A stretch of DNA of 64,000 nucleotides from Parabacteroides faecalis (GTDB lineage Bacteria > Bacteroidota > Bacteroidia > Bacteroidales > Tannerellaceae), in contig NZ_JAKZMM010000012.1 of the NCBI RefSeq assembly GCF_022809355.1, positions 1 to 64,000 of the forward strand. Direction: 5' to 3'. The notes beneath the pieces were generated by a model. The model searched no databases, had not been told where the DNA came from, and saw only the letters and a program-made list of their open reading frames with translations. How positions within the stretch are numbered: position 1 is the stretch's first letter; each line of letters opens with the position of its first letter. Shown in pieces: positions 4,175 through 41,548 of the stretch. The position numbers and the translations under genes are program-made.

Positions 4175-6640
4175 TTACTGCTTAGGATTAGATAAGTGTT
4201 TCTCTAAGTTTTGAATATAAGTATTAAGAGCCTGTGACTTATTTTCAATATTGATAAGAAATTGCTTAAAATTTGGAATCCATTCTCCATTTGATTGCCC
4301 TAACTCATTGTAGTTAATAAATAATTCCTGTAAATACAAATGACTATATAATATACTTTCAATAGGATAATTTGCGATAAATTCGTCGATATTAAGCTTT
4401 ATATGTTTTTTAGCTATTTCACAAAGTTCTAATCTATCACTGAAATAAACTTTATCAACTATATACCAGAAATCTTCATCAAAATCCTTATAAGAACCAC
4501 CTTTTTGTATATAAGGGTTCCAGTATAAATTAAATATGTCTTTGTAGCTAATTTGGGCGATGTTGAATAGTTTCATTAAATTGGTGTATTCCATATCTGA
4601 GGAAAGTACTAATGTCAATTTCTTTTTAAGAATTTCTAATGAATCATTTTCGAGAATTTCTTTTTCATAGAAATAATGATATAATGCATTCCCTAATGTT
4701 TGTTTCTTATCAGAAGATACTGATTGATTACTTTTTAACAGATCCCATCCTGGTATTGGGATTAAAATCCTTTTTTCATTCCTTCTATATTGTTGGGATG
4801 TCCAAACTCTTGATTTAGGTGTAATTTCCAATAAAGCAGTGAAGAATTGTTCCCATTTTTCTTCGGTTTCGCATTGAAAATTCTCAATTAACCTCATTAA
4901 ATTATGCTGATCAAAATCTTCTTTATTCCATTTATTTAGGTTAGTTTTAAAATCATCTAGCCCATTATTAAAACTTGATTTAAATGTGCTTTTTTCAACC
5001 AACTTTTTATCAAAAGTTCTGTTGAAATACAGTTGATAGGAATTTATATAGCAAATTCGAGCTACACCATTTCGCTCTTGATCAAATAATTCTCTAAAAA
5101 TTATATATGTTAATTCTATATTTTCATCTCCCACATCTTTTTTCAATCGTTGTTCTATATATTCTTCTTCTGAGAGTTGTTCATTATTGTTCTTGATTAA
5201 GTCTAAAATATCTTTATCCATATTTAAGGAATAACTATTCATATTCCATTTAAGGCATTTATCATTATAAGCATACAAGCCTGTATCGGCAAGGTTTGCT
5301 AAAAAAGAATACGCATTGGAATTTATCATTTGTAAATAGTTGATGAGAATATAATCATAGAGATCCAGTTTTATTCCATCTTCATCTTTCAAATCAGTTA
5401 AACCACATTGGATTGTATTACTTAGACGTTTTGCGTTTCTTAAAGTGATATTATTACCTATTCTGGTCATGAAATCTGTAATTATTTTTTCTGCATTGAC
5501 ATCGAGCAAAACCAATGAATTGACAAGTCCTTTTTTTATAGTTTCAAGCTGTTCATTCCTGCTTACGACTGGTAGAGGATAAATAATATGAAATACTTTT
5601 TCCAAGTAAGAAGAATCTATATGTAACATCTTAAGGCAATTATTTATGTATTCTTCATCATAGGCAACAATAAAAAAAATATTATTAAAGTTAGCTATAA
5701 CCCTTATAAGTTTTATTATATCAAAAACCTCTTCACTCGTTAGACGATCAAGATCGTCAATTTGAATTATCAGAGTTTTATCTAATTCCTTTATTTGTTT
5801 ACTGATACTTTGAAAAAGTTCTTCAGGGCTCTTACTCCTATAGAATATTGATAAGATTTTAGATAAATATGATATATCGGCATCTATAATCACTTTTGCA
5901 TATTCATTAATAGTATTCTTTAATGAAATATCATTTATTCCATCAGCAATAATTTTTAATAATGACTTTACAGAAGTTTGATATTTGCTACATTGCCAAA
6001 CATTTAAACGTAATAATATCACATCCTTACGAGATAGAGCAGCTTCTCTCATAAGATTGAAATATGAGGTTTTCCCTTGTCCCCACTTACCTCTTAATCC
6101 AATTATAAGAGCTCCATCAGAGGTCCGTTTTTTATTCTTAATTAGCATGTTCAATAAATTCTCTGCATCTTTCGCATAGCTTAATTTATCCTCGTTTTTT
6201 GATTGTATGGGATTGTTGCTTATAAGCTCAGAAGCTGAATTATTGGAAAGAAACTTGTTGTAAATATTTTTCATCCATTTTTTTACGTACTTAACGATGC
6301 TAATGATCAAAGGAATAAATATGACATCTGCATATTTTATATCATCAAATAGTATTTCGTATTTCCAATTTGGATGCTCAATCAAATTTTGCCGATATAA
6401 GAAGTATAATAATGAAATGAACAGACAGTGAATTAGAATACTAGCATGAATAATTTTTATGTTTCGAGCTAATTCAATAGCGGCGAAAAACATTATAATA
6501 ACATATAGTACTTTTGCCCATATATTAGCATAATTAAGAGCCATAATGTATTTATCTATAAATGCATTGATTTGTGACTCAAATACTATATTCAAAAAGA
6601 GAATTGCAATCCAAAATATTACCACCTTAGTATATTTCAT
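4175..6640 (-). CDS. KAP family P-loop NTPase, membrane-anchored
   Basis: An 821-residue protein. Hydrophobic segments near residues 6-22, 43-57, 64-82 and 105-120 should place the N-terminus in the membrane. The KAP NTPase domain follows: Walker A GLRGKWGQGKTS (181-192), Walker B TLIIQIDDLDRL (289-300) with the paired Asp, and a sensor-like FFIVAYDEEYI (about 325). KAP NTPases are a STAND-like class often found on plasmids and mobile islands, and some act in phage defence. The C-terminal half has no domain I recognise. The gene is visibly more AT-rich than its neighbours and is flanked by palindromic repeats, so it was probably acquired. No partner effector gene is adjacent. Confidence 0.85.
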   Translation of the reverse strand: MKYTKVVIFWIAILFLNIVFESQINAFIDKYIMALNYANIWAKVLYVIIMFFAAIELARNIKIIHASILIHCLFISLLYFLYRQNLIEHPNWKYEILFDDIKYADVIFIPLIISIVKYVKKWMKNIYNKFLSNNSASELISNNPIQSKNEDKLSYAKDAENLLNMLIKNKKRTSDGALIIGLRGKWGQGKTSYFNLMREAALSRKDVILLRLNVWQCSKYQTSVKSLLKIIADGINDISLKNTINEYAKVIIDADISYLSKILSIFYRSKSPEELFQSISKQIKELDKTLIIQIDDLDRLTSEEVFDIIKLIRVIANFNNIFFIVAYDEEYINNCLKMLHIDSSYLEKVFHIIYPLPVVSRNEQLETIKKGLVNSLVLLDVNAEKIITDFMTRIGNNITLRNAKRLSNTIQCGLTDLKDEDGIKLDLYDYILINYLQMINSNAYSFLANLADTGLYAYNDKCLKWNMNSYSLNMDKDILDLIKNNNEQLSEEEYIEQRLKKDVGDENIELTYIIFRELFDQERNGVARICYINSYQLYFNRTFDKKLVEKSTFKSSFNNGLDDFKTNLNKWNKEDFDQHNLMRLIENFQCETEEKWEQFFTALLEITPKSRVWTSQQYRRNEKRILIPIPGWDLLKSNQSVSSDKKQTLGNALYHYFYEKEILENDSLEILKKKLTLVLSSDMEYTNLMKLFNIAQISYKDIFNLYWNPYIQKGGSYKDFDEDFWYIVDKVYFSDRLELCEIAKKHIKLNIDEFIANYPIESILYSHLYLQELFINYNELGQSNGEWIPNFKQFLINIENKSQALNTYIQNLEKHLSNPKQ

Positions 6641-6938: not shown

Positions 6939-9299
6939 CTATGCTTGTAAAATACCTATAAATTCTCCGACAATTCTAAATTCGTCCGCATTTTCTTCTT
7001 CGATGATGATCGGAGAATAGTCTGGATTTTTAGGATGTAGAACAATTTCCTCGTGAGTCCAGTTCCCTTGTTCGTCAAAAGATTTTTTACTGGTATACGT
7101 CTTAATAGAATAACTGCCTGTATAATCCGGATCATAATAATTGTGGTGTTCCGCAAGAACAATCTTTCCTTGTCGGCTACCAGCCGGATTAGCTCTAAAG
7201 ACGCAATAATCTCCATCATGAATAAGTGGTTCCATAGAATGTCCTACTGCTTGTACGATAAACATATTACGGTTAAGTTTTCCCATTCCTTCTACTTTCA
7301 TCCAGCCGCTTTCTTCAACCATTTCTCCTTCCCCGAAATAACCACAAGCTGCCCGAATTGAATATAAGGGTAAAAAGTCGATGTATTTAACTTCGTCATT
7401 GACTTCAGGTTCAATCCGTATCTCAGGAACTGGCGCTTGTTGTGGCTCGAGTTGGGCTGCAAGATATTCTGCCAGCGGTTTATCGCAGCAATAAACGTAA
7501 CAGCCTTTCATTCCTCGTGTGAGCAACGTCCGATATGTATTTTTTATAATCTCTTCAGCATCTTGCAATGCCTTGTTTTTATTTTGAGCGATAAGTGACT
7601 TAAAGCCTTTAACTGACTGATCATTGCCAGAGCGTTTAGTAACATCAGTAACGATTTGTCCGTTTTCATAACGCATATCCGGTCCGATAATTACACCCAC
7701 ATAATCTAATTCCAGACCTTGGCATGTATGTATACAGCCTATTTCTTCGATAGAGTTATTTCCTATGATCCATAGATTTTTGTCGGTATTCAGATTCCAG
7801 CGCTTTTTGAAATTGAACTCCTGTATGATGATATCGTAATCATTGGGATCTTTTTTACTATTCCAATCCCAGCAATAGCCGGCAACAACACGCGCTTTAT
7901 TGTTGATTTTATTCTTTTCCTTAATCGTCTCAAAAAGCTGATTAGGATCAGAAAATATCTGGAAGTCATAATCATCAGCGGCTAATCGGATATTGGCTGT
8001 TTCTTTAATCTGCAACGTATTGTCGAGCCAGCTTAAATAACCGTCTGAACCGTTGCATCGGAATTGAGAACTTAGCTTGGCTGTGTGTACAACAGCACCA
8101 CACGATTCTGCGAATCGTTGAATAGCAGCTTTTGATCCTATATCTTTGATATGTACCTTTTGCCGGTCGTCTACAAAGAAAACAGAAAAACGAGAGGCTT
8201 GTATGATTTCAATAATCTGGTTTTCTCCTAAATTACTATACAGACCGCTTTTCATGTTTAGTCTGTGAGCCTCGTCAATAATCAACGCTCCAAAGGTATC
8301 TGGTGGCGTATCAATGAAACTGCCACTCCCTACAAACAAATTGTAGATGTAACTTTTCCTGAAACTTCCTGACAGCTTGGCGGTGTAAACATCTCGTGGG
8401 GCAGCATTTTTGGATACATATTGGGCAACGACTCCTTCTTTGGTCAATTCAACCAGAAGATTGACGGCAACGACGCTTTTTCCTGTGCCAGGTCCGCCTT
8501 CAACAATGAGAACTTGTTTGGGCCCTTTTGCCGCTTCACGAGCCAGACTTAATGCGGTTTCGTATACGACTTTCTGGTCATCCAGCAATACGAATTCTCT
8601 ATTTCCATGAAGCATAGAACTTAATGCGTCAGCCAATTGCTTAGACGGACGTAGTTTCCCTTTATCAATCAGCCACACAATATCTTCTTTCGAACCATAT
8701 CTGATGTGCAGCTTGATAAATTCCTGTAATTTCCCTGCATCCGACTTTAGAAAGAGTGGTGCTTTCGTAATATATTCTGCATAACAATCATTGGCAATAA
8801 TACGATCTTCCTGATAGTTATGTAAAAAGGCACACGGAAAAAGTTGTATGCCGTGCTCACGTACGGTTTCATTATAGTTTTGAAGCATGTAAGCATACGA
8901 CCAGGCCTGATAAGAAGGATGCGCTGTTTCACTTTCACCGTGTTGAAAACGTGTCTGTATGATACCGGATTTTTGAGACAGTTTGGCTTGTTCCCATTGT
9001 TTTAGTTCGATAATGATTATGTTGGAACGTTGATTCTCGTCTGCTCCGGAAATGATAAAGTCAATTCGCTTAGAAGTAAGCGGTATCTGATACTCGATGG
9101 CAATTGTCGAAGTATCAGGAATGTCAGGAGTATTGATGACTTTATACATATGCATCATGGAGTTTTTCCATGATAATTTTTCATTGGGAGAAGTATGTCT
9201 TCCCAAATGAAGTAAAAAAGCATGATCAATGTCATCCGCAATGGTATTATTGAAGACATCTTTAATGAATCCTTTCTTACTGGCGTGGTATACGATCAT
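6939..9299 (-). CDS. PD-(D/E)XK nuclease - DUF2075 SF1 helicase - S24 (LexA/UmuD-like) peptidase fusion
   Basis: A 786-residue three-part protein. Residues about 65-105 hold a PD-(D/E)XK-type signature: Asp80 in KRIDFII and Glu98-x-Lys100 in IIIIELKQW. Residues about 235-610 are a DUF2075/Schlafen-type SF1 helicase: Walker A EGGPGTGKS (267-275), Walker B ALIIDEAHRL (338-347), a QFR motif (412-414), HTCQGLELDYVGVI (524-537) and TLLTRGMKGCYVY (591-603). Residues about 640-786 are an S24 peptidase: AACG (650-653), GHSMEPLIHDGD with Ser688, and SIKTY with Lys733. The Cys652-Gly653 to Ser688 spacing equals that of UmuD. The start codon overlaps the stop of the upstream MazG-like gene (ATGA), so the two are co-translated. 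A role in phage defence or damage response is inferred. Confidence 0.88.
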   Translation of the reverse strand: MIVYHASKKGFIKDVFNNTIADDIDHAFLLHLGRHTSPNEKLSWKNSMMHMYKVINTPDIPDTSTIAIEYQIPLTSKRIDFIISGADENQRSNIIIIELKQWEQAKLSQKSGIIQTRFQHGESETAHPSYQAWSYAYMLQNYNETVREHGIQLFPCAFLHNYQEDRIIANDCYAEYITKAPLFLKSDAGKLQEFIKLHIRYGSKEDIVWLIDKGKLRPSKQLADALSSMLHGNREFVLLDDQKVVYETALSLAREAAKGPKQVLIVEGGPGTGKSVVAVNLLVELTKEGVVAQYVSKNAAPRDVYTAKLSGSFRKSYIYNLFVGSGSFIDTPPDTFGALIIDEAHRLNMKSGLYSNLGENQIIEIIQASRFSVFFVDDRQKVHIKDIGSKAAIQRFAESCGAVVHTAKLSSQFRCNGSDGYLSWLDNTLQIKETANIRLAADDYDFQIFSDPNQLFETIKEKNKINNKARVVAGYCWDWNSKKDPNDYDIIIQEFNFKKRWNLNTDKNLWIIGNNSIEEIGCIHTCQGLELDYVGVIIGPDMRYENGQIVTDVTKRSGNDQSVKGFKSLIAQNKNKALQDAEEIIKNTYRTLLTRGMKGCYVYCCDKPLAEYLAAQLEPQQAPVPEIRIEPEVNDEVKYIDFLPLYSIRAACGYFGEGEMVEESGWMKVEGMGKLNRNMFIVQAVGHSMEPLIHDGDYCVFRANPAGSRQGKIVLAEHHNYYDPDYTGSYSIKTYTSKKSFDEQGNWTHEEIVLHPKNPDYSPIIIEEENADEFRIVGEFIGILQA

Positions 9300-9637
9300 A
9301 ATTCAGTGTATTTTTTTGCGTTGCCTTTGGATTTGTCAACAGGATATTTTTCTGCGTTTTTAGCTAATTTCGATAATATGATTTCTTTGATGTCTAAATT
9401 GTATTTGTCGGCAATCAAGAAAGCATAATTCAGAATATCAGCTAGTTCTTCCTTAACCTTATCAATATTTACATCTTCCGGTTGTTTCCATAGAAAAGCC
9501 TCGTTTAACTCTGAAGCTTCAATGGATAAAGCCAAAGCCAAATCTTTTCCGTTATGAAACTGATCCCAGTCTCTGTCTTGGGTAAACTGTACGATCTGTT
9601 CCATAATTTCTTTTATATCTGATTTTTGTGACATCAT
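9296..9637 (-). CDS. MazG-like nucleotide pyrophosphohydrolase
   Basis: A 113-residue all-alpha NTP pyrophosphohydrolase of the MazG / DCTPP1 (RS21-C6) type. The two metal-binding motifs are visible as EASELNEAFLW and EELADILNYAFLIAD. The family hydrolyses (d)NTPs to monophosphates, often clearing modified or non-canonical nucleotides. It is the first gene of a two-gene unit, overlapping the helicase fusion by 4 bp. A promoter matching TTTG-N19-TATCTTTG lies just upstream on the minus strand. A second Met follows directly, so the start may be 3 bp later. Coupling to a nuclease-helicase suggests nucleotide depletion or processing tied to DNA attack; this is inference. Confidence 0.9.
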   Translation of the reverse strand: MMSQKSDIKEIMEQIVQFTQDRDWDQFHNGKDLALALSIEASELNEAFLWKQPEDVNIDKVKEELADILNYAFLIADKYNLDIKEIILSKLAKNAEKYPVDKSKGNAKKYTEL

Positions 9638-9663: not shown

Positions 9664-9694
9664 CAAAGATAGGTTGACTTTATTGAATTTCAAA
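9664..9694 (-). promoter_or_regulatory. Bacteroidetes promoter for the MazG-helicase operon
   Basis: On the minus strand, a -33 TTTG (9691-9694), a 19-nt spacer, and a -7 TATCTTTG (9664-9671). This is a full consensus match, placing the transcript start near 9657, about 20 nt ahead of the MazG-like gene. Confidence 0.8.
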
Positions 9695-40925: not shown

Positions 40926-41042
40926 GCGGATTCTGTCAATTCTTAGACAGAAAAAATATTCTAGACGCAATGAATACATTCGCATCCGAAATATTGTATT
41001 TGGGAAAATGATTGTTGTGAATATGAATAGGAGAAGGAGATG

Positions 41043-41125
41043 TGGGCAGTGATGGATTCGAACCACCGAAGGCGTAAGCCAGCTGAGTTACAGTCAGCCC
41101 CATTTGGCCACTCTGGTAACTGCCC
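41043..41125 (-). tRNA. tRNA-Tyr (GTA), copy 2
   Basis: 83 nt. Acceptor GGGCAGT pairs with ACTGCCC, the T-loop is GGTTCGAATCC, a long variable arm is present and the anticodon in GACTGTAACTC is GTA. The long variable arm is normal for bacterial tRNA-Tyr. Identical to the copy at 41307. Confidence 0.95.
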
Positions 41126-41212
41126 TAATCAATTGAGACTTGAAAATTAAAAATTGACAATTTATTTTATTGTAAATTGCCAATTCTCTATTATCAATTT
41201 TCAATTATTTTG

Positions 41213-41286
41213 AGCCTCTTGTCGGATTCGAACCAACGACCCCGAGATTACAAATCACGTGCTCTGGCCAACTGAGCTAAAGAGGC
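41213..41286 (-). tRNA. tRNA-Thr (TGT), copy 2
   Basis: 74 nt. Acceptor GCCTCTT pairs with AAGAGGC, D-arm AGCTCAGTTGGCCAGAGC, anticodon TGT within GATTTGTAATC, T-arm GTTGGTTCGAATCCGAC. Identical to the copy at 41475. Confidence 0.95.
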
Positions 41287-41306
41287 AAATCATATTTCAA
41301 AGAAAG

Positions 41307-41389
41307 TGGGCAGTGATGGATTCGAACCACCGAAGGCGTAAGCCAGCTGAGTTACAGTCAGCCCCATTTGGCCACTCTGGTAACTGCCC
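41307..41389 (-). tRNA. tRNA-Tyr (GTA), copy 1
   Basis: 83 nt, identical in sequence to 41043-41125. The four genes run Thr-Tyr-Thr-Tyr in transcription order and look like a tandem duplication of a Thr-Tyr pair with a period of about 263 bp. Confidence 0.95.
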
Positions 41390-41474
41390 TAATTAAAATT
41401 GATAATTGAAAAGTAAAGGTTGAAAAATAAAGAATTAATTTTCAATTTTCCATTATCAATTTTCAATTGTTTTG

Positions 41475-41548
41475 AGCCTCTTGTCGGATTCGAACCAACG
41501 ACCCCGAGATTACAAATCACGTGCTCTGGCCAACTGAGCTAAAGAGGC
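41475..41548 (-). tRNA. tRNA-Thr (TGT), copy 1
   Basis: 74 nt, identical to 41213-41286, first gene of the tRNA operon. A promoter (TTG-N19-TACCTTTG) lies about 40-50 nt upstream. Confidence 0.95.

Follow-up and report, generated by a model that had tools for sequence, protein, structure and literature searches.

A MazG-partnered nuclease–helicase–S24 autoprotease fusion from Parabacteroides faecalis, a possible mobile module resembling modification-dependent restriction

Among the described systems nearest to the locus considered here are the restriction enzyme SauUSI, which cleaves DNA carrying 5-methylcytosine (m5C) or 5-hydroxymethylcytosine (hm5C) (PMC3874153), and the pyrophosphohydrolases DCTPP1 and RS21-C6, which favour dCTP and 5-methyl-dCTP (PMC4491611); the latter two and Orf135/NudG have been named as 5-methyl-dCTP hydrolases of mammals and of E. 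coli, respectively (PMC10742078). MazG is listed among predicted, unvalidated defence domains (PMC13092281). The locus is a two-gene operon of Parabacteroides faecalis (assembly GCF_022809355.1) lying in positions 1 to 64,000 of contig NZ_JAKZMM010000012.1, a stretch of 64,000 nucleotides referred to below as the window. A small MazG-like gene is followed by one for a single polypeptide in which a nuclease, a superfamily 1 (SF1) helicase of the Schlafen group-3 (SLFN-g3) type and an S24 autoprotease are joined. Relatives of the pair occur in several phyla, the nuclease fold is exchanged among them, and the tail recurs on SauUSI-type enzymes, which makes the pair a candidate anti-invader module. 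The two genes and the parts of the fusion are:

9296..9637, minus strand: MazG-like all-alpha NTP pyrophosphohydrolase, 113 amino acids (aa), first in the operon (Pfam PF12643, E 1e-16)
6939..9299, minus strand: PD-(D/E)XK nuclease – SLFN-g3 SF1 helicase – S24 autoprotease fusion, 786 aa
8595..9299, minus strand: PD-(D/E)XK nuclease domain, residues 1–235, with D80, E98-x-K100 and Q131xxxY135 (model, VIA-align and invariant motif)
7482..8519, minus strand: SLFN-g3 (DUF2075) SF1 helicase core, residues 261–606, with Walker A K274 and DEAH 342–345 (PF09848, E 6.8e-108)
6942..7382, minus strand: C-terminal S24 (LexA/UmuD-type) autoprotease tail, residues 640–786, with Ser688 and Lys733 (PF00717, E 3.7e-11)
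7341..7349, minus strand: predicted self-cleavage site Ala651-Cys652-Gly653, of the UmuD type (Cys-Gly); Ala-Gly in most other lineages

A first-pass annotation, made from the sequence alone, had described two genes overlapping by ATGA, and both open reading frames (ORFs) are present as it had given them, with an overlap of 4 nucleotides and MazG first. Relatives were sought by scanning the GTDB representatives, in which 372 were found; the best 80 of these 372 underlie the counts of residues and of pairing given below for the window's type of fusion. Since the fusion is kept in several phyla, it cannot be an ORF that arose by chance.

Residues 1–235 of the fusion matched no Pfam family, and a phmmer search with the full protein against the PDB sequences returned nothing, after which structure comparison and profiles were used instead. 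An AlphaFold2 model of residues 1–255, built from 60 relatives, was confident (mean pLDDT 92.5). Among the 50 best VIA-align matches to this model PD-(D/E)XK nucleases predominated, led by 1xmx (Z 8.1), and the further matches included Cdn1, Can2 and Card1 (Z 6–8) as well as restriction enzymes, NucS/EndoMS, McrBC, Bax1 and SduA. Foldseek by itself was weak (E ≥ 0.025 at best), so the assignment of the fold rests on VIA-align plus the conserved residues: all 78 relatives that cover the region have Asp80, Glu98-Leu-Lys100 and, resembling RecB, Gln131-x-x-x-Tyr135 without exception. As modelled, the N-terminus is a PD-(D/E)XK nuclease with an alpha-beta-beta-beta-alpha-beta core.

The helicase region matched the whole profile of PF09848 (positions 1–354 of 354; 361 bits vs a cut-off of 24), the family SLFN-g3_helicase that was formerly DUF2075. 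The Walker lysine, Lys274, is found in 80 of 80 relatives, and the DEAH box (D342-E343-x-H345) is conserved. The model of the full-length fusion had a pLDDT of 87.5, with structural matches to UvrD (Z 20.7) and to human SLFN11 and SLFN14 (Z about 19).

Within the C-terminal tail the Pfam Peptidase_S24 match spans residues 666–780, and the Ser688/Lys733 dyad is present in 55 of 55 PD-(D/E)XK-type relatives that have a tail. Ahead of the domain, a Pro-x6-Ala-(Ala/Cys)-Gly segment aligns with Cys24-Gly25 of E. coli UmuD and Ala84-Gly85 of LexA; among the same tailed relatives Gly653 and Pro644 (position –9) are each found in 55 of 55 and Ala651 in 54 of 55. Bacteroidales and Omnitrophota have Cys-Gly at the site, Proteobacteria Ala-Gly. 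No match to the tail was found by phmmer among the PDB sequences. Naturally tail-less relatives measure about 613–650 aa, and to judge by the sequence a cut after residue 652 would yield a protein near that size. No LexA DNA-binding domain above the cut-off was found in the host genome, which places the tail outside the classical LexA regulon. The three domains that the first-pass annotation had read from motifs, namely a nuclease signature at Asp80 and Glu98-x-Lys100, an SF1 helicase core and a LexA/UmuD-like autoprotease tail, are thus all borne out, the first by the search for a PD-(D/E)XK fold that it had proposed, and the alignment of relatives agrees with every residue it had singled out (D80, E98/K100, K274 and S688).

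The pairing is nearly constant. MazG lies near the fusion in 75 of the 78 testable loci, directly upstream within 60 bp in 68 of them, and is absent next door in 3; in Hymenobacter it is found downstream. Two loci (L033 and L051; the loci of relatives are numbered with L) were left out of this count since their start is too near the contig end. The missing tail of L031 is likewise a contig-end artefact, and in L022, L076 and L078 the fusion ORF is broken or shifted, with no real gap. The relatives belong to the Bacteroidota, Proteobacteria, Omnitrophota, Moraniibacteriota, Mycoplasmatota and Balneolota, so that the joint conservation which had been named as a check at first pass holds over several phyla. 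Archaeal plasmids and a Microcystis phage record of 22 kb also contain relatives, and the phage-derived contigs L155 and L156 carry the pair; the viral contigs L157–L159 matched in the P-loop only and were disregarded. One full-length copy exists among the 125 genomes of the host's own family, and at class level 16 of 395 genomes have it. The pair is horizontally mobile and patchily spread.

A further domain order, GIY-YIG nuclease – SLFN-g3 helicase – S24, emerged from a class-wide search, with Pfam GIY-YIG above the cut-off in 3 of 3 proteins tested. All 20 full-length or near-full-length proteins of this type possess the S24 tail, with cleavage site and Ser/Lys dyad intact (20/20), and have MazG directly upstream; the MazG found with these forms is 54–65% identical. 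In two Algoriphagus strains (L073, 6838–11027; L080, 52–3944) a single operon holds one MazG followed by two helicases, one of the GIY-YIG and one of the PD-(D/E)XK kind, neither of which has a tail. These operons and the MazG-paired GIY-YIG forms indicate that different nuclease folds can be combined with the same MazG and the same type of helicase.

A third body, matched at its end by the GIY-YIG query, consists of PLD – SF2 helicase – DUF3427, the architecture of SauUSI, followed by S24 (1125–1160 aa). The first 970 or so residues align with the whole of PADLOC's model for Type IV restriction enzymes (E 1e-234), and the cleavage site and dyad are intact in 10 of 10 of these PLD forms. The S24 tails of the GIY-YIG and PLD forms are about 50% identical. 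The 395 genomes of the class contain 32 tails of this subfamily; apart from two fragments, each is carried by a GIY-YIG-helicase, a SauUSI-like protein or the window protein. In place of MazG, a Nudix gene immediately precedes all 16 close members of the PLD form, tailed or tail-less, as it does the S24-tailed SauUSI-type proteins of L160 (5003–8840), L161, L162 and L163; the Nudix protein also fits the PADLOC candidate family PDC-S07 (E 2e-47). Both kinds of unit, MazG/PD-(D/E)XK and Nudix/SauUSI-S24, are present as neighbours in L162. Neither the exchange of nucleases nor the tail common to another restriction family was within reach of the first-pass annotation.

The closest solved relatives of the window MazG are human DCTPP1 and mouse RS21-C6 (E 1.2e-17). 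Its metal ligands E40, E43, E64 and D67 (ExxE...ExxD) and the pocket residues W24, H28 and W50 are present in 76 of 76 relatives, which, like the PF12643 match, agrees with the first-pass call of a nucleotide pyrophosphohydrolase. In DCTPP1 numbering, seven catalytic and pocket residues are invariant (W47, H51, E63, E66, W73, E95 and D98); of the base pocket, W47 and W73 occur in 76 of 76 relatives and Y102 in 68 (F in the other 8), and H38 is replaced by L, I or V. For the Nudix protein encoded upstream of the SauUSI-like proteins, the nearest relative of solved structure is B. fragilis 3GWY (E 2.5e-39), an enzyme with kcat/Km values of 4.8e6 M-1 s-1 for 5-Me-dCTP and 4.4e6 M-1 s-1 for 5-hydroxymethyl-dCTP (PMC5158307), and Nudix enzymes of this type hydrolyse canonical nucleotides much less than 5-substituted ones (PMC5158307). 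By analogy, MazG and Nudix, whose folds are unrelated, probably converge on one substrate class, 5-substituted dCTP. The strongest pointer to function would then be that both pyrophosphohydrolases adjoin nuclease-helicases with the same tail, one type of which is dependent on modified cytosine.

Other restriction genes lie close by. A Priestia plasmid carries a type I restriction-modification (RM) system plus an MrcB_N gene that overlaps or abuts the MazG start, a type III RM system adjoins the Hymenobacter plasmid copy and a GIY-YIG form, and SauUSI-type enzymes adjoin the PD-(D/E)XK forms L162 and L124. In the window itself, the gene next to the pair encodes a PifA-like KAP NTPase. The RM and Type IV neighbours, the patchy and mobile distribution, and the tail and pairing common with SauUSI-type enzymes support a role in defence; where the first-pass annotation had left the choice between a defence and a DNA-damage system, it is the defence side that gains. 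The reading we prefer, to which we would give an even chance, is that of a mobile anti-invader module acting like modification-dependent (Type IV) restriction, with a pool-cleaning MazG and an S24 switch. The SF1 helicase would translocate while the PD-(D/E)XK domain cuts invading, probably modified, DNA. MazG would hydrolyse dCTP-type nucleotides, most likely 5-substituted dCTP, so keeping modified cytosine out of the host DNA, which would not then be targeted; modified precursors that phages produce may be a further substrate. Filaments of RecA on single-stranded DNA would trigger self-cleavage of the S24 domain at Cys652-Gly653, parting the tail from the nuclease-helicase and leaving a product that would resemble the natural tail-less forms. 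This cleavage might either free the enzyme during infection or, as a safety fuse, mark it for removal when the host DNA is damaged.

If true, this would be a form of restriction in which control of the nucleotide pool separates self from non-self and the nuclease itself contains an autoprotease that senses damage, and it would explain pyrophosphohydrolases encoded beside nuclease-helicases, which have been flagged for defence yet never validated (PMC13092281). It would also tie a widespread and unnamed gene pair, with its 372 relatives in the GTDB representatives, to Type IV restriction. More tentatively, and on balance with the chances somewhat against it, the components might form a plug-in control kit, in which a MazG or Nudix that removes 5-methyl- and 5-hydroxymethyl-dCTP and a RecA-switched S24 tail serve three nuclease-helicases, and the host is guarded by cleaning of the pool, not by DNA methylation.

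Several observations weigh against the Type IV-like reading. On the tree the S24 tail shows a minimum of about six gains or losses, the artefact at the L031 contig edge left out, which implies that it is dispensable. The His38 by which DCTPP1 contacts the base is missing in MazG, so its base preference may differ, and no known reader domain for modified bases turned up among the SLFN-type proteins. Some relatives adjoin repair or housekeeping genes and no defence island. Cytosine-C5 methyltransferase ORFs lie 1.7–6.6 kb from the PD-(D/E)XK-form loci L058, L067, L071 and L076, which fits poorly with a general dependence of the nuclease on m5C; a target defined by hm5C, by sequence context or by another modification would lift this conflict. 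Finally, the fusion is covered by no PADLOC model; those for Nhi, AbiO and PDC-S41 extend over no more than parts of its helicase.

That dNTPs can be depleted as a means of defence is well established. The principle could apply here as abortive infection, MazG destroying canonical dCTP or other dNTPs and the nuclease-helicase degrading DNA until phage replication starves. That DCTPP1-type enzymes accept dCTP too (PMC4491611) and that MazG figures on the list of predicted, unvalidated defence domains (PMC13092281) would both fit such a role. We nevertheless regard it as unlikely, since stand-alone MazG-like enzymes are usually house-cleaning, and a MazG that is encoded upstream and translationally coupled suits a constitutive partner better than a triggered toxin. 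The parallel Nudix type, moreover, is far less active on canonical than on 5-substituted nucleotides (PMC5158307).

Repair of DNA is a further explanation, in which a damage-induced nuclease-helicase would treat broken or lesion-bearing DNA, MazG or Nudix would clean the pool and the tail would link the enzyme to the damage response, without a primarily anti-phage purpose. Its main support comes from gene order: in Marinobacter (L043, L048 and L059) the pair directly follows genes that appear sbcD- and sbcC-like, and in Caenimonas a putative recC-like gene lies downstream. The LexA/UmuD type of the tail and the chromosomal, non-island settings in several hosts are in keeping with it. A spread as patchy as one in 125 genomes of the family and 16 in 395 of the class is hard to reconcile with a repair function, as are the copies on plasmids and phage contigs and the RM neighbours, and an exchange of nuclease folds is characteristic of conflict systems; repair therefore seems to us improbable as the primary role.

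The Schlafen group-3 character of the helicase core, with its matches to the SLFN11 and SLFN14 structures, raises, by analogy with vertebrate Schlafens, the prospect that after infection the target of the helicase-nuclease is RNA, such as tRNA. The Schlafen RNase core is missing, PD-(D/E)XK and GIY-YIG are both typical DNA cutters and the parallel SauUSI cuts DNA, and we think RNA-targeting immunity very improbable. Least probable is an addiction-like module that maintains itself on mobile elements, to which the two-gene overlap, the mobility and a small first gene able to shield the host from a toxic second would be suited, given that MazG retains its full set of catalytic residues, is not adjoining in 3 of the 78 testable loci and lies downstream in Hymenobacter.

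Around the pair in the window the following features were recorded:

9664..9694, minus strand: Bacteroidetes-type promoter TTTG-N19-TATCTTTG, 57 nucleotides ahead of the MazG start, present also in L009 and L010
9699..9752, no strand: inverted repeat GTAAGTAAATAAAC / GTTTATTTATTTAC, 14 bp with 13 of 14 pairs, seen in the sequence immediately upstream of the promoter
4175..6640, minus strand: KAP-family NTPase, PifA-like (PF07693, E 3.5e-28; PADLOC PifA, E 1.8e-33)

L009 and L010 were the nearest relatives in the promoter comparison. The inverted repeat is not claimed as an operator, since it shows no conservation in relatives. The left-flank gene of the region is missing in 20 of 21 near relatives and the GHMP kinase on the right flank is present in 20 of 21 (own genome counted in both), which indicates that the pair sits in an accessory region. 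The KAP NTPase, whose presence in the neighbourhood had been noted at first pass and on which Pfam and PADLOC agree, has N-terminal hydrophobic segments and a GC content of 28%, vs 44% for the window; it is a defence candidate that would have been acquired separately and lies outside the conserved pair. Elsewhere in the window (41042–41548) a tRNA-Tyr and tRNA-Thr pair exists in two tandem copies, with tRNA-Trp further on.

A Pfam/PADLOC tally of 100 neighbour genes, which had no random-gene control and from which no enrichment is claimed, gave TPR genes as the commonest and defence genes as scattered. In the relatives, a TPR gene overlaps or abuts the MazG start in about 12 loci plus the Microcystis record, and might be a sensor or adaptor. 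Genes of about 515–670 aa stand at the 5' end of MazG in L013, L016, L018, L022, L023, L028, L030, L031, L064, L072, L073, L076 and L092, and proved to be TPR proteins where tested; in the Algoriphagus locus L073 it is a TPR gene that precedes MazG. The phage-derived contig L155 (5940–9875) contains a TPR gene, a gene for an HExxH-type peptidase-like protein, MazG and the PD-(D/E)XK-helicase, with terminase- and capsid-like genes alongside. A short way upstream of its MazG/PD-(D/E)XK pair, L123 (9181–11891) encodes a ParA-like ATPase (PADLOC candidate PDC-M28B), accompanied by a further small gene.

Among the papers searchable, none on DUF2075 or Schlafen proteins with MazG dealt with the pair. 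The combination, the exchange of nucleases around MazG and the S24 tail common with SauUSI were likewise absent from the literature searched, the coverage of which is incomplete, so that an earlier description is possible.

Compared with known systems, the fusion resembles SauUSI (PLD – SF2 – DUF3427) in that a single chain combines an N-terminal nuclease with an NTP-driven motor, and close SauUSI homologues in the Bacteroidia have the same S24 tail and, immediately upstream, a pyrophosphohydrolase gene, as the SLFN forms do. The two differ in nuclease fold, in helicase superfamily and in DUF3427, and membership of the SauUSI family was rejected as Pfam and PADLOC found none of PLD, SF2 and DUF3427 in the fusion. 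Nhi and AbiO share with it an SF1 helicase of the DUF2075 type (PADLOC E 3e-10 and 5e-12, respectively); only positions 179–333 of 470 in Nhi and 174–370 of 468 in AbiO were matched, the nuclease domain remained unmatched and these models include neither a MazG partner nor an S24 tail, so the fusion was assigned to neither. With SLFN11 and SLFN14 it has the helicase family PF09848 in common, but Schlafens carry the Schlafen core RNase, where the SLFN-type fusions carry PD-(D/E)XK or GIY-YIG; Pfam finds no Schlafen core in the fusion, and it was not classed as a Schlafen protein. LexA, UmuD and the phage repressors of the S24 family share with its tail the Ser/Lys dyad, the (A/C)-G site and the proline at –9, but here S24 is the tail of a nuclease-helicase and has no DNA-binding or polymerase-partner role as in LexA and UmuD. 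DCTPP1 and RS21-C6, the closest solved relatives of MazG, are set apart by His38, which is L, I or V in the MazG, and unlike DCTPP1 the window MazG is an obligate genomic partner of a nuclease-helicase. The parts are known singly, and their combination suggests a variant of nuclease-helicase, Type IV-like defence.

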